From a virus, in the IMG/VR virus record IMGVR_UViG_3300011113_000475, positions 1 to 31,185 of that record: a stretch of DNA of 31,185 bases. The stretch is one strand, 5' to 3'. The notes beneath the pieces were generated by a model. The model had not been told where the DNA came from and searched no databases. It worked only from the letters and a program-made list of their open reading frames with translations. Of the stretch, positions 2,318 through 28,510 are shown piece by piece. Both the position numbers and the translations under genes were made by a program. Each line of letters starts with the position of its first letter. Position 1 is the stretch's first letter.

Positions 2318-3229
2318 CTAGTTCACCCCGGGCGAGCCGAACATCCCCAGCGGGTCAGACCAGCCGACAGAGAAACGCATGCGGGACTTGTACCGCATGT
2401 TGCCAGTCTCCCAGTCGCCGTCGTCGGACAGCTTCGGCGGCACGCGCTCGAAGAACTTCAGGCCGTCGGTGACGTCGGTTTTGAGGAACCAGGCGTTCGT
2501 GTCGGTCAGGCGGTTGTTGATGACGTATCCACCCGGAAGGAACTGCGTCGTAACGATGGCATTCGCATCATTGTCCGAGGTCCCAACTCGCAGAGTGGAC
2601 TTCATTAGCCGTTCCGCGGTCCAAGCGTAGTCAACCGGGATCACCAGCTTCGTCGGCTGGGACTGGATCAGCAGCCCGCACTCATCGGTCCACTTCGCAA
2701 TCTGGATGCGAGCGGCGTCGAGCGAGGTTTCGTTCAGGTCGGCGCCGGTAGTCGGGCGGTTGGAGTTCGTGCCGCCGTTCACCAACGGGTGAGCCGTCGA
2801 GAACAGGACCACGCCGTCGCCACCGAGACCGGAGGTGAAGCCGTTGTTGAGGATGCCGGCCGCCACGATCTCCTGCGTGTGAACCATCGAGCGGGACAGC
2901 GCCTTGGTGTAGCGACCGGCCAACGGGATGTACAGGTTGTCCTCGATGGCCTCTTCCGTAATGGCGAAGCCGAGGGCGTAGGTGATGTGGGTGTACCGAG
3001 CGGTGAAGGCTTCCTGGGCCGAGGCGAAGGCTACCGGGCTTCCTTCGGCCTTGACCGCTGCCAGACCGAACAGCGAGATCTTCTGCTCTTCCTCGAAGCT
3101 GCGCTTGGAGGTCTGCCGCTCAAAGATCTCAGGCCACTGAAGCGGATACTGCTTGTAGGTATCTCCCCAGATTTTGTTGAGTCCGGGAAGTAGCTGTTTC
3201 TGTTGTTGTGCTCTTGTGATGACTGGCAT
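2318..3229 (-). CDS. major capsid protein (HK97-fold, Mu gpT-like)
   Basis: The 303-aa product is predicted to build the capsid shell. The N-terminus (MPVITRAQQQKQLLPGLNKI, then WPEIFERQTSKRSFEE) and the central YTHITYALGFAITEEAIEDNLY segment match the pattern of Mu gpT-type major head subunits, including the E-loop-like part with the A-domain after it. The C-terminus (KSRMRFSVGWSDPLGMFGSPG) is also typical. The length is in the usual range for this family, and no N-terminal protease or scaffold domain is fused. Context supports the call strongly: scaffold, decoration-like protein and portal lie just upstream in the same operon. Confidence 0.88.
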   Translation of the reverse strand: MPVITRAQQQKQLLPGLNKIWGDTYKQYPLQWPEIFERQTSKRSFEEEQKISLFGLAAVKAEGSPVAFASAQEAFTARYTHITYALGFAITEEAIEDNLYIPLAGRYTKALSRSMVHTQEIVAAGILNNGFTSGLGGDGVVLFSTAHPLVNGGTNSNRPTTGADLNETSLDAARIQIAKWTDECGLLIQSQPTKLVIPVDYAWTAERLMKSTLRVGTSDNDANAIVTTQFLPGGYVINNRLTDTNAWFLKTDVTDGLKFFERVPPKLSDDGDWETGNMRYKSRMRFSVGWSDPLGMFGSPGVN

Positions 3230-5272: not shown

Positions 5273-5634
5273 TATTCACCCCTCCGGATCATGTCGGGAT
5301 CGATCACGATGCCCTCGATGGCGTCGTCTACGATCATGCGATATTCTCTGTCGGACCCCTTGACGTTGACCTTCGTGCTGCCGGAATACGGTCGCACAAG
5401 GACGGTGTCACCTACCGCACACCGGGGAGTTCCCCTGCGGCGCGGAGGATTCGATTGGAGGTCCATGAAGCAATCCGGCCCCAAGGCCAAAACCTTCACC
5501 ATGGGTGACGCCTGGTCTTCTTTCGAGGCCCTCTCTTCCGGAATGGCAATGCCGCGGATCTCTCGCGGCGCCTTCACGACTTCAACGAGTATGTGGTAGC
5601 TGGTTGGTTTGATGATCTCTTCGATTGGTTTCAT
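5272..5634 (-). CDS. GroES-like co-chaperonin (Cpn10 fold)
   Basis: The 120-aa product shows a GroES-type plan: an N-terminal strand (PTSYHILVEVVKAPREIRGI), a central segment corresponding to the mobile-loop region (IPEERASKEDQA), then VKVLALGPD, and the C-terminal GDTVLVRPYSGSTKVNV with EYRMIVDDAIEGIVI, matching the family pattern 'vGd.Vl...ysGtevk..g.ey.i....di..iv'. It should cap a GroEL ring to help fold capsid protein, as T4 gp31 does. An insertion (SNPPRRRGTPR) separates the two halves. Placement between portal and scaffold supports a role in capsid protein folding. The stop overlaps the scaffold start. Confidence 0.75.
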   Translation of the reverse strand: MKPIEEIIKPTSYHILVEVVKAPREIRGIAIPEERASKEDQASPMVKVLALGPDCFMDLQSNPPRRRGTPRCAVGDTVLVRPYSGSTKVNVKGSDREYRMIVDDAIEGIVIDPDMIRRGE

Positions 5635-5816
5635 TCTTCTTGTTGGGTGCTCTTCGCGAAGTCGCGAAGGATGTTGATTGTGCGCCGGCAGGATTCAATC
5701 TGGCCGACGATATAGCGATACTCGTCATAGGACTTGGCTTGCCCTTTGGCGAGACCATCGGAAAGCTGCGAAATTTGCGTTTCGAGAATTTTTTGAAGAG
5801 ACAGTTCCTGCGTCAT
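5631..5816 (-). CDS. small helical head-module protein, unknown
   Basis: The 61-aa product (MTQELSLQKILETQISQLSD...) is predicted all-helical, with a Y.YIVGQIESCRRTINILRD segment. Small proteins with a 'Y....G.I.....' core are often found after the portal in environmental phages, but their role is unknown. Its ATG overlaps the portal stop (ATGA) and its own stop overlaps the GroES-like start, so translation is coupled on both sides. Confidence 0.6.
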   Translation of the reverse strand: MTQELSLQKILETQISQLSDGLAKGQAKSYDEYRYIVGQIESCRRTINILRDFAKSTQQEE

Positions 5817-8263
5817 AGCATCTGGTCGATTCGCGCCAAGATCTCAGCAACCTGGGCCTTCAGCTTCTCCACCTCAGCACGTTGCGCCGGGGCATTCAGC
5901 TTCGCTTCAGCGAGGAACAACTGGTTTCGGTCGATGGACCCTTCCTGTTGCATCCGCTCCTGCGACCGGATCCGCTCCATCTCGATGACGTTGCGGGCCT
6001 GTGCCGCCTGTGCGGTCTGCTGAATCTTCGCCGCTTCGGTCTGCGCCTTCAGCTGTAGCTTGGCCTGCTCCAGTTGCAGTTCGGCTTGCTGGAGTTGCAG
6101 GACCGGGTCCTGCGCCTTGGCCTGCGCTTCCTGCTGCTGTGCCTGTTGCTGGTTCTTCCGAAGCAACTGCTGACCGGCCTGCGCCACCAGAACACTGAGC
6201 TGCGACTCAATGTCGCCAGGGAGTTGCTGGTCGAGGCCGGGGAGCGGGACTCCGAGTTCTCGCTCGATGTTTGCCCGATACTGATAGGCGAAGTGCTCGG
6301 CGATGTGGGCCTGCGCTGCGGCAAACAGAGCCTGGGCCTGGGGGTTCTGCCCAATTGCAGCGGCAGTAGCCGGATCCTGGACGAACGCAACGTGCGTGGC
6401 GATATGGGCTGGATGATCTTGCCACTCCAACGCCTTCACTGGCTTACCCGTGATGATTGCCATGTTCTCAGCGACCGGATCCATCGGCTTAACATCCGTC
6501 TTGTCCGGGACTATGAGATTGACGTCCTTGATTCCGGCGATGGTCAGCATCTGCCGGTGGAGTTCGGCGAGATCGTAAAGTTGCGGCGCCTGTTGGGCCA
6601 GTTGGATCGCGACCTGGTAGAGCGTAATCCGCTGCGACAGCGTTGCTGCGTTCGGATCGCTGACCGGGATGATGTCGATGCGATTGTCAAAATCGGATTT
6701 CCTAATACTACGGCTTCCGCCCTCGACATCGTATTCGTACTCATCCGGGGTGAAGTCGCGCATCACCCGCGCCAAGATGCGGAGTTCGTCATGCAGCGAG
6801 GCGTGGAGTCGCGCCTGCACCGCCGACATCACCTTCATCTCGCGCTCCATCAGGGCGAGGACACTGCCCACCGGTGCGTTCGCGCTGGCGTCTCCCACCT
6901 GGATGTCGGAGATCGAGGCGAGGCGTCGACCGTTCTCCTCGATGCGCGTTAACAGCGTCAGCAGAGCACCGGACGGTTCCTTGTACGGCAGAGGGAAGAA
7001 TACGTCCCGCAGGTTCCCGACCGAAAGATCCACGTCCCGCCATTCGCCGGGCGAGATCGGGTCGTTCATGTCAGCGACACGCGCATCGCGCGTCTTGAAG
7101 CCGCCTGGAAGATTCGCGAGTGTGCCGGCGTCGATCAGCTGGCGCTCGATGCTGGTAGCTGCCTTCGCGCTCCCGCCGATCAGGTGAAGGACGCCGTATC
7201 CGTAGGGGCCCTCCGCCGGGATGTAGGAGTAAGCGGCATACCACAGCAGCTTCTGCTTGTTCGGGTCGCCCTCGCGCCAGTTGCGCCGAATGGCAACGAT
7301 AACGCCGGCGCGGTCGAACGTCACAACGTAGGGAATCGGGAGGCCGTTCGGGTGAGACTCCGGGTCGTCCTCGATATGCAGCAGCGTATGGCACTCGTAG
7401 AACGTCCCCGGATCGCCGTCCAGCGAGGAGGCCGTGCGTTCCGTTGCCTCGTCGATGGCTTCCTGGAGTTCGGAAACATCCGGCGTTTTGTCCACAGCCA
7501 CATCGCGCCAATCCCCGTTCACCTGGAGGCGCTTCACATCGGACGGGAACAGGTGCATGACCTCGGTGTACCGCGGCGCCGTCTGGAGCGAGGACGCCCC
7601 GTAGGGGATGATCATGTCCTGGGCGCGGATGTACTGAGCCGTGGGGCGTTCCAAGCGAGCATCAGGGTACACCTTGCGGAATGCACTGCCGATGAACGCG
7701 AGGCCGAACAGCAGCTTTTCCGTCTCCGGTCGATAGTCCGGGATCTCTTCGGTGAGCGCGTAGTTCATGCGCGACCGGACACGCTCGGCCTGTTCGATCC
7801 GTTCTTTCGTGATGCGGCCAACGATCTTCGCTTTTACCGGGCCATCCGGCGGGAAGATCTCCATGATGGCGTTAGACTGGAACCGCACCACCGCTTCGGT
7901 GATCATCGTTGACACGATGCCGCACGCGCCGGCCCACGGCTCAGTTCGCTCTTCCGGCTTAAACCCGAGCAGCTTGAGTCCGTCCCGGAACCCGTCCATC
8001 CAGTCTTCGCGAGACGCTTCGTCTTCGTGGATCTGCTCAAGCAGGTCGCGGCCAATGGCGTTCAGCGTCTCATCCGGCAAATACTCGGCAAGGTTCGCAT
8101 CGAAGCCGACCATGTCAAGCGTGGGATTCCCGGGAGCTTCTTCGATGGTGATCTCGATACTGCCATCGGGAAGTTCGACCTCGGTCGAGACGTTGAGCGG
8201 TGAAACCTCAACCGTCTGCTCAATCTGAATTTCCGGTTCACCTGGATTCACTCGCTCGATCAT
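5813..8263 (-). CDS. portal protein (large, P22-like class)
   Basis: The 816-aa product is predicted to form the dodecameric DNA entry ring between head and tail. The N-terminal 85 residues are acidic; the body begins around EASREDWMDGFRDGLKLLGF and continues with ERTEPWAGACGIVSTMITEA and VKAKIVGRITKERIEQ, a pattern shared by the large portals of many environmental podovirus-like phages. The last 130 residues are Gln/Ala/Lys-rich and coiled-coil-like (QQLLRKNQQQAQQQEAQAKA), as in portals with a long C-terminal barrel. It lies between TerL and the scaffold. An extended -10 box ends only nine bases before the ATG and no ribosome binding site is seen, suggesting a leaderless message. Confidence 0.85.
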   Translation of the reverse strand: MIERVNPGEPEIQIEQTVEVSPLNVSTEVELPDGSIEITIEEAPGNPTLDMVGFDANLAEYLPDETLNAIGRDLLEQIHEDEASREDWMDGFRDGLKLLGFKPEERTEPWAGACGIVSTMITEAVVRFQSNAIMEIFPPDGPVKAKIVGRITKERIEQAERVRSRMNYALTEEIPDYRPETEKLLFGLAFIGSAFRKVYPDARLERPTAQYIRAQDMIIPYGASSLQTAPRYTEVMHLFPSDVKRLQVNGDWRDVAVDKTPDVSELQEAIDEATERTASSLDGDPGTFYECHTLLHIEDDPESHPNGLPIPYVVTFDRAGVIVAIRRNWREGDPNKQKLLWYAAYSYIPAEGPYGYGVLHLIGGSAKAATSIERQLIDAGTLANLPGGFKTRDARVADMNDPISPGEWRDVDLSVGNLRDVFFPLPYKEPSGALLTLLTRIEENGRRLASISDIQVGDASANAPVGSVLALMEREMKVMSAVQARLHASLHDELRILARVMRDFTPDEYEYDVEGGSRSIRKSDFDNRIDIIPVSDPNAATLSQRITLYQVAIQLAQQAPQLYDLAELHRQMLTIAGIKDVNLIVPDKTDVKPMDPVAENMAIITGKPVKALEWQDHPAHIATHVAFVQDPATAAAIGQNPQAQALFAAAQAHIAEHFAYQYRANIERELGVPLPGLDQQLPGDIESQLSVLVAQAGQQLLRKNQQQAQQQEAQAKAQDPVLQLQQAELQLEQAKLQLKAQTEAAKIQQTAQAAQARNVIEMERIRSQERMQQEGSIDRNQLFLAEAKLNAPAQRAEVEKLKAQVAEILARIDQML

Positions 8264-8289: not shown

Positions 8290-9990
8290 TCAGTAATATG
8301 ATCGCCTGATTTTGGGAGCCCGCTCTTCCTCTTCGTAGTCATCGTGCAGCGGCATGAACCGACCGGACCGATACCGCATGAGCGCCATGATCACGGTGTC
8401 CACGTAGTCGTCGTGATCGGCCCGCGGGAACAGCGCCACTTCTTCGAGAACGGCGTCAGCCCAGTCGCGAGGCGGGTACCAGACAAAGCCCTGCTCAAAG
8501 ATCGGGCTTACCGAATTGAGCCGCATCGTCTTATCGCCGGTCTGCCAAGTCGGAGTGTACGCCTGGATCGACAGCCCCATCTGGCGAAGTTCCTGGATTA
8601 GGGGCATGCCTGTCGCCTTGGCTTCGATGATGCAGGCGTCAGGCTTCCATTGGCGGTATTTCTCATGGGCCTTTTTCTTGAGCGCCGGGAAGTCAACTTG
8701 TCCCCGCCAAGCGTCAAGCAGGATGATGCCGGCGTTGCGGCCGCCGTTCTCCTTTGGCATATCGAATACACCCCAGGTGGTGACCGCGGAGTAGTCTGAG
8801 AGCGTCTTGGCGCTGAACGCCGTGTCCCAAGTCTGGATGATGTAGGTGCAGATCGGAGGCTTGGCGTCGAAATCGATTTCCCCGTTTTCGTCCATCCCCC
8901 AGCAGCGCCACTGATCCCGCGGGACGATGCTGCTCGTCTCGAGAATCGGGTTCTGCATATACTGCGCGTTCCAGCGCCACTTCACCATCGTGTGCTTGAT
9001 CTTGAGCAGTTCCTCGACCTTCCAAAACTCCGGCCACAGCGACTTCCACACGGGCTCGTTGTTCTCATCGATCTTCGGATTTCCGTATTCGTCCTCGTCG
9101 ATCAGCAGCGCGGGGAACTCAATGATCTCGTACTTCTCCGCATTGGGGTCGTTCTTCATCCGCTCAACGATCCGGCCAGTCATGTCGAACGGCGCCCATC
9201 GCTGCATGACCACCACGATGGATCCTCCCGGCTGGAGTCGGGCCCGCGCCTGGTTGAACCAGTTCCAGACCTGCTCGAAGTCTTCCTTCGTGGGCATGAC
9301 GTTCGACTTTTCACTGCCAATCGCCGACTGTTCGCCGTGCGGGTCGTCAACGATCAGGACATCAGCGCCGAACCCAACGGCGGTCGCCGTGGTCGAGGTA
9401 CCAAGGTAGTAGCCGCCTTGGCGCGTCTTGAACTTCGTCTTGGCTTTTGTGTCAGTGGAGAGCTTGAAGTCCGGAAACACGTCCGCGTATTCCGGACGGG
9501 CAATGGTGTCCTTTACAGCCTGACCGAACTTCTCAACCAGCTGCATCGTACAAGATGCCTGGATGATCTGCTTGGTGGGGTTTTTCCCGAGATACCACGC
9601 TGGAAAGCGCACCGAGATCTGCTCGGACTTGCCGTGCCGGGGCGCGATGTTGATCACCACCCGGACCGGTTCACCGCGGTCAATGCGGTGGAATACATCG
9701 GCCAGCTTGCGAAGGTGAGGCCCGTCGATGTAGCCGGGGTAGACGTGCTTGACGAAAGCGTTGAAATCAACGATGCACTGGTCCCGCCGGTAGAGGGTGC
9801 GGAAGTTCTCCAGCTGCTGAAGAACCTCTCCACGCTTCTCCTCCGGCAAGGCGCGGAAGCGGGCGCTCAGTTCGCCGGCAGGGTTGCGGATCGCAGCATT
9901 CAGCCTTGCGATCATGCTGCGGACATTTTCCAGTCGCTTCTGCGCCTGCGCGTGCAGCGACAGTTCTGGCTCTTTCTTCTTGCGCTTCAT
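8290..9990 (-). CDS. terL: terminase large subunit (ATPase-nuclease)
   Basis: The 566-aa product is the motor that packages and cuts phage DNA. The ATPase domain has a Walker A variant APRHGKSE at residues 116-123 and a Walker B VLIVDDPH at 211-218, with a coupling-type segment around VVVMQRWAP (259-267). The nuclease domain has the RNase H-like acidic residues: TWDTAF with D389, EAKATG with E456, and DHDDYVD with D526/D528/D531. The N-terminal 60 residues are basic and helical. Length is normal for large terminases. It is the first gene of the leftward head operon; a TATATT box lies 11 bases before the ATG, with no clear Shine-Dalgarno. A TerS-like gene is not adjacent but at 25512-26159. 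Confidence 0.93.
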   Translation of the reverse strand: MKRKKKEPELSLHAQAQKRLENVRSMIARLNAAIRNPAGELSARFRALPEEKRGEVLQQLENFRTLYRRDQCIVDFNAFVKHVYPGYIDGPHLRKLADVFHRIDRGEPVRVVINIAPRHGKSEQISVRFPAWYLGKNPTKQIIQASCTMQLVEKFGQAVKDTIARPEYADVFPDFKLSTDTKAKTKFKTRQGGYYLGTSTTATAVGFGADVLIVDDPHGEQSAIGSEKSNVMPTKEDFEQVWNWFNQARARLQPGGSIVVVMQRWAPFDMTGRIVERMKNDPNAEKYEIIEFPALLIDEDEYGNPKIDENNEPVWKSLWPEFWKVEELLKIKHTMVKWRWNAQYMQNPILETSSIVPRDQWRCWGMDENGEIDFDAKPPICTYIIQTWDTAFSAKTLSDYSAVTTWGVFDMPKENGGRNAGIILLDAWRGQVDFPALKKKAHEKYRQWKPDACIIEAKATGMPLIQELRQMGLSIQAYTPTWQTGDKTMRLNSVSPIFEQGFVWYPPRDWADAVLEEVALFPRADHDDYVDTVIMALMRYRSGRFMPLHDDYEEEERAPKIRRSYY

Positions 9991-18328: not shown

Positions 18329-18495
18329 CAGTCGAGGAACAGTGGAACCTGATTGCCGCATTCGTCGAGCCTGAGCATCGAAGAGTGGCGCAGGCCGCGT
18401 ACTTCGCCGGATACGCAGCGGCGTTAGGCGATCAGGATCGGTTTGAGGAGGCTCGGGCGGTAAGGGATCAGTTACTGGAGATTAAATGTGGCTGA
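18325..18495 (+). CDS. small helical protein, 56 aa
   Basis: The start at 18325 overlaps the TGT-like stop (ATGA). MTVEEQWNLIAAFVEPEHRR and AAYFAGYAAALGDQDRFEEA form two helices in a tetratricopeptide-like hairpin. Its last codons overlap the start of the methyltransferase locus, so it is translationally coupled to it. Function unknown. Confidence 0.5.
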   Translation: MTVEEQWNLIAAFVEPEHRRVAQAAYFAGYAAALGDQDRFEEARAVRDQLLEIKCG

Positions 18496-19655
18496 GAATA
18501 CCTACGACAATACCTACATCTCACTCTTCTCCGGCTACGGAGGACTCGACCTCGCCGTCCGATGCGCTTTGCCAGAGGCTCGCTGCATCTGTTTCGTGGA
18601 GAGGGAAGCTCCTGCGGCCGCAATCCTGGCGGCTCGCATGGAGGACGGAGGGCTGGAGGAATCGCCTATCTGGTCTGACATTACCACCTTCCCAAGCAAA
18701 CTCTTCCGTGGCCGCGTGGCTGGACTCGTTGGTGGGTTTCCCTGCCAGGACCTCAGCGTTGCAGGGCGACAGGCCGGAATCGAGGGAGAGCGGAGCGGAC
18801 TGTTTTTTGAGATCGTTCGACTCGTTCGCGAGCTGGAGTCCGTCGAGTGGCTGTTTCTTGAGAACGTCCCGCCAGTTCTCAATTTTCCAGCAGGAACAAC
18901 CCTTCTTGGAGAGCTTGCCAAAATCGGGTTCGATGCGGAATGGGGAACTTTACGAGCGTCCGATGTTGGCGGATCGCACCGGCGAGAGCGGGCGTTTGTG
19001 TTGGCCTACCGCAGTGGTTACCGATTGCAATGGAGCGCGGAACAAGACGAGCGGCAGGTCTATGGCGTCGCAGCATCACAGCGGAACGACATTGAACGAT
19101 GCGATTATCAACTGGCCTTCCCCTCGCTCCGAGGACTCGGAAAGCTGTGGGAATCATCCGGGGGCGGTGGATTCGTTGACGGGGGCGGCGCGGATGTGGC
19201 CCAACTACCAAAAGCCGCTGCCTTATTTCCGGCCAAAGCCCGTCTATCAAACGCGCCTACCCAACGAGACATCGAGCGAATACTGGGAACGCATGACGGA
19301 TTACGAGACCGAGAACGGCATCAACCCGGCGGAGGGCGGGATGCACTGTCCTACGCCAGCCGCCCGCGATTACCGGAGCCCGAATGCTGCGAGCCACATG
19401 GATCGCTCGACGGGGGCGAAGCATCTGGATCAACTTCCGAATTTCATCGAGCACTGTTTCCTCCCGGACCCGCCGACCTCGACGCATGGCGGCAAGTCCC
19501 TGTGTGGCTCCACCCGGCGGTTGAACCCGGACTTCGTCGACTGGCTGATGGGACTGCCGCCAGGATGGACCGACTACGCGCCGCTGGAAACGGCGTCGTA
19601 CCTCTCCAAGGTGCGGTCGCTCTTGCGCTCCTTCTTGGGAGGGCACGCTAAATGA
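18486..19655 (+). CDS. overlapping long frame inside methyltransferase locus
   Basis: This 389-codon frame is open across the whole methyltransferase gene, one frame away, starting at ATG 18486 (two bases before the GTG of the other frame) and ending four bases after it. The first 120 residues look like a by-product, rich in Ser, Arg and Leu. The rest reads as a real protein: LPKSGSMRNGELYERPML, three repeats of the type W/C-P-T/S-x-x-x-x-D (CWPTAVVTD, NWPSPRSED, HCPTPAARD), a Tyr/Asn-rich middle, and STRRLNPDFVDWLMGLPPGW. The last motif is one I know from phage methyltransferase-associated proteins. Third-position GC, judged by eye, favours this frame in the 3' half. Dual coding, or a frameshift fusion, is inferred. 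Confidence 0.5.
   Translation: MWLRIPTTIPTSHSSPATEDSTSPSDALCQRLAASVSWRGKLLRPQSWRLAWRTEGWRNRLSGLTLPPSQANSSVAAWLDSLVGFPARTSALQGDRPESRESGADCFLRSFDSFASWSPSSGCFLRTSRQFSIFQQEQPFLESLPKSGSMRNGELYERPMLADRTGESGRLCWPTAVVTDCNGARNKTSGRSMASQHHSGTTLNDAIINWPSPRSEDSESCGNHPGAVDSLTGAARMWPNYQKPLPYFRPKPVYQTRLPNETSSEYWERMTDYETENGINPAEGGMHCPTPAARDYRSPNAASHMDRSTGAKHLDQLPNFIEHCFLPDPPTSTHGGKSLCGSTRRLNPDFVDWLMGLPPGWTDYAPLETASYLSKVRSLLRSFLGGHAK
18488..19651 (+). CDS. DNA cytosine-5 methyltransferase (Dcm-like)
   Basis: The 387-aa product transfers methyl from S-adenosylmethionine to cytosine C5. Motifs: I, ISLFSGYGGLDLA (11-23); IV, GGFPCQDLSVAG with catalytic C86; VI, FLENV with E125; VIII, RASDVGGSHRRERAFVLA (156-173). 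The C-terminus carries motif X-like RLADGTAARMDRLRAAGNGV, then VPLQGAVALALLL. The region from about residue 178 to 340, the target recognition part, is Gly-rich and odd, which is where the overlapping frame looks better. The GTG start overlaps the ATG of that frame; GGAG lies upstream. It could protect phage DNA from restriction or alter host sites. Neighbours are Lar-like and TGT-like genes. Confidence 0.85.
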   Translation: MAENTYDNTYISLFSGYGGLDLAVRCALPEARCICFVEREAPAAAILAARMEDGGLEESPIWSDITTFPSKLFRGRVAGLVGGFPCQDLSVAGRQAGIEGERSGLFFEIVRLVRELESVEWLFLENVPPVLNFPAGTTLLGELAKIGFDAEWGTLRASDVGGSHRRERAFVLAYRSGYRLQWSAEQDERQVYGVAASQRNDIERCDYQLAFPSLRGLGKLWESSGGGGFVDGGGADVAQLPKAAALFPAKARLSNAPTQRDIERILGTHDGLRDRERHQPGGGRDALSYASRPRLPEPECCEPHGSLDGGEASGSTSEFHRALFPPGPADLDAWRQVPVWLHPAVEPGLRRLADGTAARMDRLRAAGNGVVPLQGAVALALLLGRAR

Positions 19656-20380: not shown

Positions 20381-20711
20381 GGTGACCGAAAACGACGTAG
20401 AAGCCGACATTCTACGGTTCCTCGTTCGCAACAATTGGATCGTGCGGCGCCAGCACAGTGGCATCTTCCGCACCCAGGCCGGCCATCCGATCCGTCTGGG
20501 CGAGCCGGGGATGTGCGACTGGTCGGCGATGCGGCCCACCGGCGGCCGCGTGGTGCAGTATCTGGAGGTCGAGGCCAAGGCGCCGGGGAAGAAGCCTGAC
20601 CCGAAGCAGCGGGAGTACATGGCGAAGCGGAAGCACCAAGGCATCCTGTGCTGCTGGGCGGATTCGGGGGCGGCATTCGAGACGTGGTACTACGGGGAGG
20701 GATTTGAGTGA
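20373..20711 (+). CDS. VRR-NUC family nuclease
   Basis: The 112-aa product matches the stand-alone phage VRR-NUC form. It shows ENDVEADILRFLVRNNWIVR, then RRQHSG, GEPGMCDW (D49), VQYLEVEAKAPG (E67 and K69, the ExK of the PD-(D/E)XK fold) and KQREYMAKRK (Q79), ending with the usual GILCCWADS strand. Such enzymes cut branched or structured DNA and are typically encoded beside helicases and primases. It overlaps the stop and start of its neighbours; the helicase starts at its end. Confidence 0.82.
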   Translation: MRKVTENDVEADILRFLVRNNWIVRRQHSGIFRTQAGHPIRLGEPGMCDWSAMRPTGGRVVQYLEVEAKAPGKKPDPKQREYMAKRKHQGILCCWADSGAAFETWYYGEGFE

Positions 20712-22348
20712 CCGACAGTATCCGAGATCACCAGAAGTCGATGGAGGATCGAGCCGCCCTGGTCCGCTGCTCTTTGCGCCACCAGACCCTCCGCCCCTAC
20801 CAATCCCAGGCCATCGCCGAGGCCCGTGACGCCCTGCGCGTTCATCACCGCGTGCTGATCGTGGCGCCGACCGGCGCGGGGAAAACGACCATCGCCGCCG
20901 ACATCATTCGGCGAGCCGTCGAGCGCGGTGGGGTCGTGTGGTTTCTTGCGCATCGCAAGGAACTCATCGACCAGGCCTCCGCCCGTCTCGACCAGTTCGG
21001 CATTGCCCACGGCGTCATCATGGCGCAGCACTGGCGCGATCGGCCGCACGAACGGGTCCAGGTGGCGTCTGTGCAGACGCTCGTGAACCGCGACGTGGAT
21101 ATCCGGCCTTCGCTCATCATCATCGACGAGGCACACCGCGCAACGGCCAACTCCTACCAGACCGTCATCGAGAACGCCGGCAAACCGCGCGTCATCGGCC
21201 TGACGGCTACGCCCATCCGCGGCGACGGCAAGGGGCTCGCGTCCATGTTCGACGCGATGGTCCAGTGCCCCACCATCGGGGAACTGATGCGCGATGGGTA
21301 TCTCGTGCCGGATCGGGCCTTCGCGGGGAAGCGGGTGGACTTGGCCGGCGTCGAGGTGCGTGGCGCCGACTACGATCCCACGCAGCTAAATGACGCCATG
21401 AACAAGCCGCATTTAATCGGCGACGTGGTCAGCGAATGGCGTCGGCTGGCATCAGGGCGACCAACCATGGTGTTCGCCGCGGGCGTGAAACACTCGCGCA
21501 CCATCGTTGAGGCGTTCCTGGCGGCGGGCATTGCCGCGGCACATCTCGACGGCGAGACGCCGAAGCAGGAGCGCGAGGCGATCCTGAAGCGCCTCGCGGA
21601 TGGCCGTCTGACGGTCGTCAGCAACGCCATGGTGCTGACCGAGGGGGTAGACGTCCCCGTGGTGTCCTGCGTCGTCCTGGCGCGTCCGACGAAGTCAAAG
21701 GGCCTATACCTCCAAATGGCGGGACGCGGGCTGCGGACGGCGCCGGGGAAAACCGACTGTCTGATCCTCGACCACGGCAACTGCACCATGGAGCACGGCC
21801 TCGTGCGGCGCGACCAGAACTGGCAGTTGACGGAGGACGCACAGCGCCGGCGGGGAAAGCAGGTCAGCTACGCGGAGACGTTCAAGGTGTGCCCGGACTG
21901 CGGCGCCGTCCACGAGCTCCAGGACGAGGCGTGCGAGTGCGGGTATCGGTTCGCGGCGCGGGCCAAACAGAAGCCGCTAAAGGTCTACAATGGGGTGCTC
22001 GAGGAGGTCACCGAGCAGCGCGTGCGGGAGTACAGTGAGAGCCAGCGCAAGGCGAAGTATTTCCGGTTGCTGCATGAGCAGCACACGGGCACGAAGAAGG
22101 ATGGGAGTCCGTTCTCGAAGGGGTATGCGTTTGTGAAGTACGAAGCGATGTTTAAGATCAGGCCGGAGAGCGGATGGCGGGAGGAGTGGAATCAGAAAAA
22201 TCAGGATCTGATCGACTCTTATGCCCGCCAGTGGCGGATATGGAACGCGCAGTTTGAGCCGCAATCCTGCACCTGCCACATGGGTCACCCACCTTGCGGA
22301 TGGTGTACTTCGCCGAATCGTACGGAACAGGACTTCACCCATGTCTAA
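20708..22348 (+). CDS. SF2 DEAH-type DNA helicase with zinc motif
   Basis: The 546-aa product starts with a GTG overlapping the nuclease stop. Helicase motifs in order: Q-like LRPYQSQAI (28-36), Walker A VAPTGAGKTT (52-61), Ia WFLAHRKEL, DEAH at 140-143, GLTATP (164-169), then NAMVLTEGVDVP (306-317) and YLQMAGRGLR (334-343). A four-cysteine zinc site follows (C395, C398, C409, C411: CPDCG...CECG), and more cysteines lie at the C-terminus (SCTCHMGHPPCGWC). It should unwind DNA using ATP in replication or recombination, similar to SSL2/RadD-like phage helicases. It ends inside the primase gene start. Confidence 0.9.
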   Translation: MTDSIRDHQKSMEDRAALVRCSLRHQTLRPYQSQAIAEARDALRVHHRVLIVAPTGAGKTTIAADIIRRAVERGGVVWFLAHRKELIDQASARLDQFGIAHGVIMAQHWRDRPHERVQVASVQTLVNRDVDIRPSLIIIDEAHRATANSYQTVIENAGKPRVIGLTATPIRGDGKGLASMFDAMVQCPTIGELMRDGYLVPDRAFAGKRVDLAGVEVRGADYDPTQLNDAMNKPHLIGDVVSEWRRLASGRPTMVFAAGVKHSRTIVEAFLAAGIAAAHLDGETPKQEREAILKRLADGRLTVVSNAMVLTEGVDVPVVSCVVLARPTKSKGLYLQMAGRGLRTAPGKTDCLILDHGNCTMEHGLVRRDQNWQLTEDAQRRRGKQVSYAETFKVCPDCGAVHELQDEACECGYRFAARAKQKPLKVYNGVLEEVTEQRVREYSESQRKAKYFRLLHEQHTGTKKDGSPFSKGYAFVKYEAMFKIRPESGWREEWNQKNQDLIDSYARQWRIWNAQFEPQSCTCHMGHPPCGWCTSPNRTEQDFTHV

Positions 22349-24392
22349 ACTCATCGACGCCGCCCTCCACTACGCCCGCCGGGGCTGGCCCGTCCATCCG
22401 CTCAAGCCTCTGTCGAAACTGCCCGCATCGAAGCACGGCTGCAACGATGCCACAACCGACGAGCAAATTATTCGCGCCTGGTGGGCCGAAAACCCGGACT
22501 ACAACATCGGTCTCCGCACCGGTGTGCTGTGGTTCGTTCTCGACGTCGACTCGAAGCACCGGGACGCCGCCGAGTGGCTCGAATCGGTCAGCCTGCCGGA
22601 AACCATCACCGCCATCACCGGCACGAACGGCAGGCATTTCCTGTTTCGCTCGCCAGACTTCCCGGTGACCAACTCGACCTCGAAAATCGGCCCGCACATC
22701 GACATCCGCGGCGCCGGCGGCTACATCGTGGCCGCGCCGTCGATCCACCCGGAAACCCGGCAGGAATACGCCTGGGACTGCGTTGACGAATTCCCTACCG
22801 GACACCCAGCTGAGGCCCCGCAATGGCTTCTCGACCGGCTGATGCCGACCGGATCGCAGCGACTCGGCCCCGCGCCCAACATCATTCCGCACGGCGTCCA
22901 GCACACGACGCTGTTTAAGTACGCCTGCTCGATGCGGTCAAAATACGGCATGACTGAGGAGGAGATGCTACCAGCCGTCGTGGCGCTGTCCAAGCGTTGC
23001 GAGATCGTTCCGCCTGAGCGGAACATGGTCAAGCTGGTCGCCGACGTCTGCAACCGGTACCCGCCGGGGGTGTCGGCTGAATACGCGCAGCCGCAGGCCC
23101 AGACACCCCAAACCATCGAACCCGAATACGAATCAACCGATGTCGAGGTACCAGCGAAGCTCACCCCGAATGCCCACGCCGACCGGATCATGCAGCAGCA
23201 CGCCTTCCTCAACCACAGCGGGGTGCTATACCAATACAACGGCACGCACTGGGCGCAGATCGACACTGGGACGCTGAAACATCTGGCGCTGCGAGCCGAG
23301 CCCAAACACTCCAATATGAAGCGCCGGTCGGAGATCGCCAACCGCATCGTGGACGAGTCGCGGAACGACAACGTGCGCTGGCGCAACCTGGAGAAGTACG
23401 AGATCCCTCTCCTCAACGGAGTAATCGACGTGCGGTCGATGGCTCTGCGGGCGCACCGCAGAACCGACTACCTTCAGTCGTGCGTCCCGCACGAATACGA
23501 CTCGTCTAGCACTTGCCCCGTCTGGCAGGAGTGCATGGATACCTACTTCGGCGGCGACCCTGACCAGGACGCGAAGCAGGACGCGCTACAGGAGTTCTTT
23601 GGCTATTGCCTCATGCCCCACGCCACCTACAAAAAGGCCCTCCTCTGCAAGGGCGAATCCGACTGCGGCAAGTCCACCATCCCGTATCTGCTGCGCGTCC
23701 TGGCTGGCCAGCAGAATTGCTGCGCGGTGGGCGTCGAGTCCATGGACGATCCGCGCAAGCGGGCTCCGCTGCGTGGCAAGCTGGTCAATCTGCTCACCGA
23801 GCTTACCAGCGACGCCATGATTGCCGACGGCGGCTTTAAGACGCTCGTATCGACCGAGGAGCCGATTTTGTTCGACGAGAAATTCCTGCCGCCCGTCCTC
23901 GACGTACCCATCGCCAAGCACGTCATCGTCACAAACGTCCTGCCAACGATCAACGACCGCAGCCGCGGAACCTTCAACCGGCTGCTCCTGATCTCGTTCA
24001 ACCACGTCATACCGCTGGCGCAGCAGGACCGCTCCATCTGGGACAAACTGCGCGGCGAGATCAAGGGCATCTTGCACTGGGCGCTCTACGGAGCGCAGCG
24101 GCTGTACCTAAGCGGTGGTACCTTCACCAGCGTGGGCCGGGTGGAGGTCGAGGAATACCGGGCGAGCCAGAATCCGCTGGTTGAGTGGATCGAGGAGTCT
24201 TGCGAAACAGATCAGGATGCCAAGGCACTGTTATCTGAGATGAGGGATCGGTACAACCGCTGGGCAGGCAGACCTGTCAGTCCAGCCTATTTTGTTTCAT
24301 GTCTCCAGAGCGCCGGCTTCAAGACAACAAAAAACCCAATCAGCGTTGGAGCGAAGAGAGGCCGAGCCTGCATCGGACTCCGCCTCCTGTGA
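22341..24392 (+). CDS. bifunctional primase-polymerase / SF3 helicase
   Basis: The 683-aa product is the likely replication initiator. The start is the ATG at 22341, overlapping the helicase stop. An N-terminal PrimPol domain spans about residues 1-170: RRGWPVHPLKPLSK, IGLRTG, FVLDVDSK with D68/D70, GTNGRHFLF with H99, and DIRGAGGYIVAAPS with D121. A D5/P4-type linker region follows (LNHSGVLYQYNGTHW and EYDSSSTCPVWQECMDTYFG). The SF3 helicase has Walker A GESDCGKST (438-446) and Walker B-like LVNLLTE (481-487). P4 alpha-type proteins combine priming, unwinding and origin binding. The iteron-flanked AT-rich region 570 bp downstream fits as its target. Confidence 0.92.
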   Translation: MSKLIDAALHYARRGWPVHPLKPLSKLPASKHGCNDATTDEQIIRAWWAENPDYNIGLRTGVLWFVLDVDSKHRDAAEWLESVSLPETITAITGTNGRHFLFRSPDFPVTNSTSKIGPHIDIRGAGGYIVAAPSIHPETRQEYAWDCVDEFPTGHPAEAPQWLLDRLMPTGSQRLGPAPNIIPHGVQHTTLFKYACSMRSKYGMTEEEMLPAVVALSKRCEIVPPERNMVKLVADVCNRYPPGVSAEYAQPQAQTPQTIEPEYESTDVEVPAKLTPNAHADRIMQQHAFLNHSGVLYQYNGTHWAQIDTGTLKHLALRAEPKHSNMKRRSEIANRIVDESRNDNVRWRNLEKYEIPLLNGVIDVRSMALRAHRRTDYLQSCVPHEYDSSSTCPVWQECMDTYFGGDPDQDAKQDALQEFFGYCLMPHATYKKALLCKGESDCGKSTIPYLLRVLAGQQNCCAVGVESMDDPRKRAPLRGKLVNLLTELTSDAMIADGGFKTLVSTEEPILFDEKFLPPVLDVPIAKHVIVTNVLPTINDRSRGTFNRLLLISFNHVIPLAQQDRSIWDKLRGEIKGILHWALYGAQRLYLSGGTFTSVGRVEVEEYRASQNPLVEWIEESCETDQDAKALLSEMRDRYNRWAGRPVSPAYFVSCLQSAGFKTTKNPISVGAKRGRACIGLRLL

Positions 24393-24858: not shown

Positions 24859-24957
24859 AAAATTTGTGATTGATGCGAAATGCCCGATCCTCCCATGGCA
24901 CCAAGATCAGGAATCTACCCCATGGACTCTAAAATTCCAGATTCTCCAGTGATCCCG

Positions 24958-25176
24958 GCACGGGTGACACGGATGACACGGACAGTTTCTATTTTATACT
25001 ACTTTTTATAATTATACCACTTTTTTATATACTACACTCTATCATATTAACACTCTCTGCTCTTTATATATTTACTGTGTCAACCGTGTCAAGGGATATA
25101 AGAGTATATAGAATCAATAGTTTAGGCCGGCACGGATGGGCTTTTTTCATCCGTGCCGCATCCGTGCCATCCGTGT
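24958..25176. other. candidate replication origin: iterons around AT-rich core
   Basis: Three direct 9-bp repeats lie at 24958-24984 (GCACGGGTG, ACACGGATG, ACACGGACA). To the right, GCACGGATG lies at 25130-25138 and the inverse CATCCGTGC at 25148-25156 and 25159-25167, with CATCCGTGT at 25168-25176. Two related GTGTCAACC/GTGTCAAGG units lie at about 25077-25094. Between them, 24985-25075 is strongly AT-rich in an otherwise GC-rich window, as expected of an unwinding element. It lies next to the PrimPol-helicase gene. Origin function is inferred; a promoter or operator array is the alternative. Confidence 0.55.
25128..25158. other. hairpin within candidate origin
   Basis: CGGCACGGATG (25128-25138) and its exact complement (25148-25158) form an 11-bp stem with a 9-nt loop ending in six Ts. 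The arms are themselves iterons. The T-run lies in the loop, not after the stem, so it is not a standard terminator. Confidence 0.6.
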
Positions 25177-25511
25177 CGGATATAGGGGGTGTTGCCCACA
25201 ACTCAGGGGTGGTGTTTGTTTTGGTAGGATTTTTCTGAAGGGGGGTGGGGGTCCGGGGAATTTTCGGCGAGGGGGGCAGCCCAGCGGATTCCCGGTGCCA
25301 AGGCGGGGGCCGGGGAATTTTCGGGGCGTGGCTCAACGGGGGATTCGTGGCGCTGTCAGGGTCCCCAGCTGAAAAGTGGGAGTGTGGGGTCATATGCTTC
25401 ACGCGGGCGGGCGGCCGCGGGCATAGATGGGGGGTGGCCGGCCGGTGGGGGTCGCGCGCGCGCGGATTTAGGAACGCGCGTCCGGGGGCGCGCACGCGCG
25501 CGCCTGGCGCG
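25177..25511. other. G-rich non-coding tract with repeats
   Basis: No convincing gene was found here. The plus strand has many runs of four to six G, and CCGGGGAATTTTCGG occurs twice exactly (25253-25267 and 25310-25324, 57 bp apart). The last 70 bases are dense in CGCG/GCGC (for example CGCGCGCGCGCGG near 25452-25464), and GGCCGGCC occurs around 25435. Proline-rich frames on the minus strand are likely by-products of G-runs. It separates the iterons from the TerS-like gene and might contain a packaging or replication signal. Confidence 0.45.
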
Positions 25512-26159
25512 TCACGCGCGCCCGTCTTCCTCTATGGGCCGGCCGCAGGTGGGGCAGGATTTGCATGAAACGCTTATACTAGGCGCGAGAAGTGTTTTGT
25601 TTTCAGCAACTTGCGAGGATTCGTCGGGATGTTCCACGTGGAACATTGCATCGATGGTGTCGGAAACCCCCAAGTCTGCCATGAGCGCTTTGAGTTGCGC
25701 GTCGGCTTGGTCGAGGTCGAGGATGTGGCGGTGCGTCACCTCGGACCTGCTGACGAACAACCCAGCGGCCTTGGCTATGAGTTCGGTGGCGCGTAGGGCC
25801 TTTCCGCCGTCCTCCCCCTCTGCGAACTGAAGCCACTTGCGGAAACAATAGTCCGCTGCTTCGCTAGTATCAGCAAACACTCTCGCGTCCACCCAGTTCT
25901 GGATCAGTTTTATTGCCACTGAAACCTTTGGGTGTGAGTGAACGTGATAACACTCTATCGACAGAGCATCATCGGTACGAGCAGGGTCCACATCGTAGAC
26001 GCTACGGTAGGCAACAACTTTGGCGATTCCTGCGCCAACCATGACGGCAAAGCGGCGCTGCTTTACAGTGAGCTCCTCCAGCGCCGCATCGATATCCCGC
26101 GGATACCGGACAACCGTGTCCTCTTTCAATTGCCGGATAAGCGCGGCTGATGAGCTCAT
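25512..26159 (-). CDS. terminase small subunit-like protein
   Basis: The 215-aa product shows the pattern of Terminase_2-type small subunits: ELTVKQRRFAVMVGAGIAKV ('LT.KQ..F......G....A'), AYRSVYDVDPART, HPKVSVAIKLIQNWVDARVF, and a later helix GGKALRATELIAKAAGLFVS, like the 'al..l.k..gl' end of the family. It would recognise the packaging site for TerL. It is separated from TerL by over 15 kb, has its own minus-strand promoter region and a C-terminal zinc-like end (CKSCPTCGRPIEED). Its codons for MFHVEH contain a perfect parS site. A TATATT box lies six bases before the ATG and no ribosome site is visible. Confidence 0.6.
   Translation of the reverse strand: MSSSAALIRQLKEDTVVRYPRDIDAALEELTVKQRRFAVMVGAGIAKVVAYRSVYDVDPARTDDALSIECYHVHSHPKVSVAIKLIQNWVDARVFADTSEAADYCFRKWLQFAEGEDGGKALRATELIAKAAGLFVSRSEVTHRHILDLDQADAQLKALMADLGVSDTIDAMFHVEHPDESSQVAENKTLLAPSISVSCKSCPTCGRPIEEDGRA
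25630..25645. promoter_or_regulatory. parS: parS-like centromere site (16-bp perfect palindrome)
   Basis: TGTTCCACGTGGAACA is an exact 16-bp palindrome (18 bp including flanking A and T) identical to a well-known chromosomal parS variant bound by ParB/Spo0J proteins. It is inside the TerS-like coding region. No second copy and no parA or parB gene was found in the window, so host ParB would have to act on it. Confidence 0.75.
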
Positions 26160-27279: not shown

Positions 27280-27331
27280 CCCGCGGCTCTCGCGCAGCGG
27301 GGCCAACAACACCACCCCACCCCCAAGGAGA
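27280..27331 (+). ncRNA. hammerhead remnant plus AC-rich leader
   Basis: CCCGC (27280-27284) and GCGGG (27297-27301) match the two stem I halves of the decayed hammerhead at 28426-28475, and the 47 bases 27285-27331 match 28459-28505 at 45 positions. The catalytic core (CUGANGA, stem II, GAAA) is missing, so this copy cannot cleave. The AC-rich part ends in the AAGGAG ribosome site of the next gene. Confidence 0.45.
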
Positions 27332-28434: not shown

Positions 28435-28475
28435 CGAGGGCCTCAACGCGCGCGCCATGGCGCTCGCGCAGCGGG
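28426..28475 (+). ncRNA. decayed hammerhead ribozyme
   Basis: Stem I (CCCGC at 28426-28430 with GCGGG at 28471-28475), CUGACGA (28431-28437) and a long stem III (about 28447-28468, loop AU) are kept, and A28470 sits where the cleavage base should be. However, the conserved GAAA is UCAA here, stem II is reduced, and position 16.1 is C69 rather than U, so activity is unlikely. The 47 bases at 28459-28505 are nearly identical to those at 27285-27331. Confidence 0.5.
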
Positions 28476-28510
28476 GCCGACAACACCACCCCACCCCCAA
28501 GGAGAACGAA

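Follow-up and report, generated by a model that had tools for sequence, protein, structure and literature searches.

How does a phage genome come to carry an exact copy of a bacterial chromosomal parS site, and does the copy serve the phage? The question arises from the IMG/VR virus record IMGVR_UViG_3300011113_000475, a linear contig of 31,185 bases that is itself a fragment and is called the window below. The parS–ParB pair is among the most conserved DNA–protein pairs of bacteria, and chromosomal parS lies near oriC. A motif scan of the window located the exact 16-mer, a palindrome of the form TGTTNCACGTGNAACA with the CACGTG core. It has A at position −1 (A/T at both flanks), and the palindrome extends to 18 bp. 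The two nested features are:

25630-25645, no strand: parS, perfect 16-bp palindrome TGTTCCACGTGGAACA, an exact match; identical to Pseudomonas aeruginosa parS2/parS3 and to the mnmG-parA parS of an Acidobacteriaceae metagenome-assembled genome (MAG)
25629-25646, no strand: extended 18-bp palindrome ATGTTCCACGTGGAACAT, with the preferred flanking A; identical to the invariant run in a four-way alignment of the window with contigs C17, C157 and C254

Three statements of the initial annotation held up: that this is an exact parS palindrome, that it lies inside a gene as codons for MFHVEH, and that a chance match in 31 kb is very unlikely. Read on the minus strand, the 18-bp palindrome is ATG TTC CAC GTG GAA CAT, near the end of the open reading frame (ORF) at 25512-26159. 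In P. aeruginosa, parS2 and parS3 are the highest-affinity ParB sites (PMC4368675). The 16-bp site is the only perfect palindrome of that length in the window. The search for more sites that had been proposed at the outset was run on the 31-kb window and gave no second match even with up to three mismatches allowed; at that threshold 100 dinucleotide shuffles gave a mean of 0.10 matches. An occurrence of the 16-mer by chance gains some ground from the very many windows and motifs read at the outset, and from a control palindrome that still gives 12 occurrences across IMG/VR, but the expected count of the exact 16-mer is only ∼5e-6 per 31,185 bases, three relatives keep the site and the 16-mer is enriched across IMG/VR. 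The chance reading is largely refuted by this conservation, and we regard it as extremely improbable.

The minus strand of the window encodes the terminase large subunit (TerL), portal, a GroES-like protein and the major capsid protein (MCP), and the plus strand YqaJ, a C5-methylase, a helicase and a prim-pol/D5 protein. The features that bear on the site are:

2318-3229, minus strand: major capsid protein (Phage_capsid_4, 1e-15)
5813-8263, minus strand: portal protein (PHROG 1216, 5e-29)
8290-9990, minus strand: terminase large subunit (PHROG 38, 1e-92)
20708-22348, plus strand: superfamily II helicase (ResIII, 3e-29)
22302-24392, plus strand: prim-pol/D5-type helicase, likely the replication protein (Prim-Pol 9e-42, D5_N 1e-9)
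24955-25179, no strand: putative replication origin, an AT-rich core between inverted iterons ACACGGATG and CATCCGTGTC (found as repeats; GC dips to 28%)
25410-25511, no strand: GC-rich non-coding block, 92-94% identical to C17, C157 and C254, with invariant runs of 41, 20, 11 and 18 nt
25512-26159, minus strand: gene of 215 aa resembling the terminase small subunit (TerS), with the site in the part that codes for its C-terminal linker; homologs hit the 'terminase small subunit' families PHROG 51 and 2606 (best 1e-6)

The site-bearing gene is assigned through its relatives: profile searches gave no significant family match for the window protein itself, and PHROG 51 was matched by three of the five TerS family members (best 1e-6). 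In an alignment, MFHVEHP falls in a C-terminal linker gap of four homologs with 31-41% identity, so that the site is placed where the protein is least constrained. Directly after the TerS stop lies the CGCGCG-rich block, almost invariant in the parS-bearing relatives, which could be a cos site, a pac or other packaging element, or an origin element. The distance from parS to the putative iteron origin is ∼450 bp. Relatives show the same layout downstream of prim-pol with other iteron words (GACACAG in L329, ATGGAACGC in L214, ATGAATTCC in L226 and TATGGAACA in L230). Because the layout is kept while the words differ, co-evolution of iterons and initiator is suggested, and this is the pattern expected of a putative origin whose iterons follow their initiator. 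The same replication module is followed by other TerS/TerL types in four relatives (L216, L217, L228 and L232), where packaging modules appear to have been exchanged right downstream of prim-pol. Neither a tRNA nor a match to a tyrosine integrase was found in the window record; an integrase is present in 7 of the 14 relatives examined, and part of the lineage is therefore probably temperate.

With the window TerS protein as the query, there was no match in phage GenBank records or viral contigs, and relatives were reached only via prim-pol, a TerS profile and a MAG. The prim-pol search led to JADCJL010000113, a contig in an Acidobacteriaceae MAG with 89% prim-pol identity, which carries a TerS ortholog (93% identity) and the exact site. 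Within one MAG bin, the exact site is present in C17, C157 and C254, whose TerS proteins are 93%, 62% and 62% identical to that of the window. An earlier reading, in which TerS relatives have no site, was dropped once the MAG contigs were found. The TerS core of C157 and C254 has strongly diverged (about 61-62% identity to the window), and the four-way DNA alignment shows an invariant run there that covers the 18 bp of the extended palindrome and no more: the columns on either side vary, and the CG centre is retained in 4/4 sequences.

The initial annotation had proposed to check whether relatives keep the site while the surrounding codons drift. Among the closest relatives the expectation was upheld, with all three contigs keeping the 18 bp while the gene diverges; deeper relatives do not keep the site. 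The site is missing from the TerS homologs at 31-41% identity, and the DNA examined for the 80 closest MCP and the 80 closest TerL relatives holds nothing within one mismatch of TGTTYCACGTGRAACA. Among 29 related whole records, 28 gave no match within two mismatches and one has a single one-mismatch site. In the mosaic relative L232, an unrelated TerS-like gene has TGTTCCACGTGGAACG, one mismatch away from the site, at its 5' end. A mismatch at an end position (AACC), the same end as in L232, leaves P. aeruginosa ParB binding nearly equal to that of the perfect site (PMC4368675). The parS trait is rare within the lineage.

Retention in 3/3 of the closest TerS relatives has to be read against the block in which the site lies, which is conserved overall. 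From the C-terminal end of TerS into the GC-rich block, coding and non-coding DNA are conserved alike. For the more distant pairs, synonymous differences amount to ∼50% in the TerS core and ∼5-20% in the C-terminal part. The absence of change at five degenerate codons has P ∼0.02 at the gene-wide rate and a higher value within the conserved block; this codon test is weak because the C-terminal block is conserved at the DNA level anyway. C17, C157 and C254 come from one bin, and their TerS ends may have recombined. The site could accordingly have arisen once and been carried passively inside a recombining, packaging or origin block conserved for other reasons, an explanation that also accommodates the deeper TerS homologs without the site. 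It does not account for an invariant run that coincides exactly with the extended palindrome and is flanked by variable columns, nor for the presence of the 16-mer at other places in independent phages, where it exceeds one control by at least 10-fold. We consider passive carriage quite improbable.

The initial annotation had also stated that the phage has no parAB, and within the 31-kb record this was confirmed: neither HTH_ParB (PF17762) nor the ParA-type AAA_31 (PF13614) gave a match in this linear fragment, and neither was found in 14 relatives, whose records are fragments too. No self-encoded ParABS system, with parB (and parA) in cis, was thus detected in the window or in these relatives.

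A candidate source of ParB is the Acidobacteriaceae MAG that bins the three related contigs. It encodes one HTH_ParB protein (4e-35) in an mnmG-parA-parB neighbourhood, and the gap between mnmG and parA holds the very 16-mer of the window, with a near-parS starting 27 bp away. If this MAG is the host, the phage parS would be the host parS. The host link consists of one MAG, and it is a lead rather than a result because phage contigs cannot be binned reliably and, among 257 genomes of the order, a single one was found to carry this TerS.

As the site is an exact parS, occurs without partition genes in the known 31 kb and is kept by close relatives, the phage probably loads host ParB. The suggestion of the initial annotation that the phage borrows host ParB was thereby supported in one part, a host-type parS without parAB, which three contigs keep and which is identical in the MAG; ParB binding, the identity of the host and the benefit to the phage are what we infer from it. 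From sequence comparison, we judge it likely, by a clear margin over even chances, that the phage keeps the 18-bp palindrome as a true parS of the chromosomal type, serving as a loading site for host ParB. The broader statement, that it is a host-ParB site with some function, is held with greater confidence and seems very likely.

Whether such sites recur among phages was assessed across IMG/VR. The 16-mer occurs in at least 120 contigs and a control palindrome in 12, an over-representation of at least 10-fold relative to this one control, which was composition-matched and had the same CACGTG core. The loci analysed were the matches listed, taken in scan order, and are not a random sample. Among the matches listed (98 non-redundant loci), the site lies inside an ORF in 59 of 90 cases against 78.7 expected (p ∼1e-7). 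Base −1, also among the matches listed, is A in 93 and C in 8 of 196 flanks (p 6e-16; inside ORFs alone, p 2e-11). Chromosomal-type parS sites of Acidobacteriaceae have A at 22 of 34 flanks, and at −2 the A/G preference is similar. This flank signature, common to phage and chromosomal sites, points to ParB as the probable reader of the phage 16-mers.

Host contamination was rejected as the source of the enrichment: HTH_ParB was found in 0 of 50 parS-bearing virus records among the matches listed, against 9 of 14 genomes for the positive control of that search, and the identifiable nearest genes are largely those of phages. Of the 120 loci listed, 31 (about one quarter, with some redundancy among them) have matches to genes of the window's broad TerL/portal/capsid lineage; their sites lie upstream of TerL, close to portal or behind a capsid gene. 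A general adjacency of parS and terminase was not upheld; TerL and portal are the commonest named class among the genes nearest the 98 sites listed, but they are few. In five loci (L049, L071, L099, L108 and L109) the canonical variants TGTTCCACGTGGAACA and TGTTTCACGTGAAACA stand in tandem, 8 bp apart, upstream of TerL, and one record of 28.9 kb (G079, locus L105) has five exact parS sites in ∼6 kb and no HTH_ParB match. It is plausible, and we put it forward tentatively, that phages lacking partition proteins have repeatedly come to borrow host ParABS by means of a bare consensus parS, gained at different positions in unrelated phages, with the host ParB-CTP clamp used for positioning, replication or segregation.

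Similar palindromes occur in a related group of phages. In the slot after the MCP gene of 80 cluster-1 relatives, the CG centre was found in 3 and a CA/TG centre with intact arms (TGTTCCACATGGAACA or TGTTCCATGTGGAACA) in 12, while several others have unrelated inverted repeats there. Between terminator and next gene, this slot (L333-L412) contains variable inverted repeats, often TGTTCCAYRTGGAACA and elsewhere unrelated stems. A CA/TG centre is not core parS, and the cluster-1 palindrome may be a stem-loop or hairpin, or another operator. These intergenic palindromes had been considered as proof of selection for parS; since in an unbiased sample the centre is usually CA/TG and different inverted repeats may occupy the slot, they were dropped as evidence.

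The cluster-1 result warns against calling every such palindrome parS, and by analogy the window site itself might be a stem-loop or the operator of another protein that coincides with parS. What sets the window-type element apart is its CG centre in 4/4 sequences, which the warning leaves unaffected. The candidate host has the same 16-mer as its parS, the flank preference equals that of chromosomal parS, and the tandem CC/GG and TT/AA forms seen in other phages are both canonical parS variants. A coincidental stem-loop or operator is in our estimate improbable, although less so than passive carriage.

The reading as a host-ParB loading site implies a sequence of three steps. The exact consensus parS, kept in three related contigs with partition proteins not found in the window or its relatives, was observed directly and constitutes the first. 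One parS loads ParB-CTP clamps, which spread over kilobases. From this known biology of ParB, host ParB-CTP would in the second step bind the phage site, close into clamps and spread over the neighbouring kilobases, including the putative origin and terS. In the third and least certain step, the phage replicon would become cargo of host ParA/ParB, and its genomes would be positioned or segregated in an extrachromosomal phase. A plasmid can be stabilised by parS2 together with parAB (PMC4368675). That partition or positioning is the main benefit is possible, and we hold this a little more tentatively than the recurrence of the strategy among phages.

Host ParB might instead be loaded for a benefit other than partition, with terS or its neighbours silenced or timed, SMC recruited, or ParB titrated away from the host origin. 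Such a regulatory or decoy role fits a site that lies within terS and beside the putative origin; in other phages, where parS stands upstream of TerL or of portal, late-gene control would suit it. On test plasmids, parS-bound ParB represses nearby promoters (PMC7022226), which lends the regulatory role further support. Against it, one decoy site can absorb little ParB, and the positions in other phages are scattered, with no consistent target gene. We think a benefit of this kind unlikely, if less so than a coincidental operator.

The proposed loading of host ParB can be compared with known systems. With the parS of bacterial chromosomal ParABS the window site shares the identical 16-bp palindrome, the flank preference and the origin-proximal position; it differs in lying on a phage genome, in single copy, without parA/parB in cis and inside a terminase-small-subunit-like gene. 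Phage-plasmids of the P1, N15 and mycobacteriophage RedRock type encode their own ParA/ParB and have a private parS. They resemble the window in being phage replicons with a centromere near the replication region, whereas no ParA/ParB domain was detected in the 31-kb record and its site is of the host type. Test plasmids bearing P. aeruginosa parS2 show that one perfect palindromic parS is enough once ParA/ParB are supplied (PMC4368675), but those are engineered, while the window site is natural and its proteins would presumably come from the host. Searches of the open PMC full texts turned up no account of a host-type parS in a phage lacking parAB. If the proposal is true, a single 16-bp site would account for the positioning or inheritance of a phage genome without partition genes of its own, and ParB-GFP foci or ChIP would give a ready handle for tracking phage DNA in cells. 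The enrichment across IMG/VR makes the idea testable already in cultured phages.

Several minor features of the window were recorded. A Chaperonin-10 (GroES)-like protein is encoded at 5275-5634, between the portal and scaffold-like genes. A 47-bp repeat (27285-27331 and 28459-28505, 96% identical) ends in CACCCCCAAGGAGA ahead of small ORFs and is a putative duplicated leader or ribosome-binding region. Two plus-strand ORFs of near-equal length, 18486-19655 and 18488-19651, overlap almost completely in different frames, and one of them is the C5-cytosine methylase.
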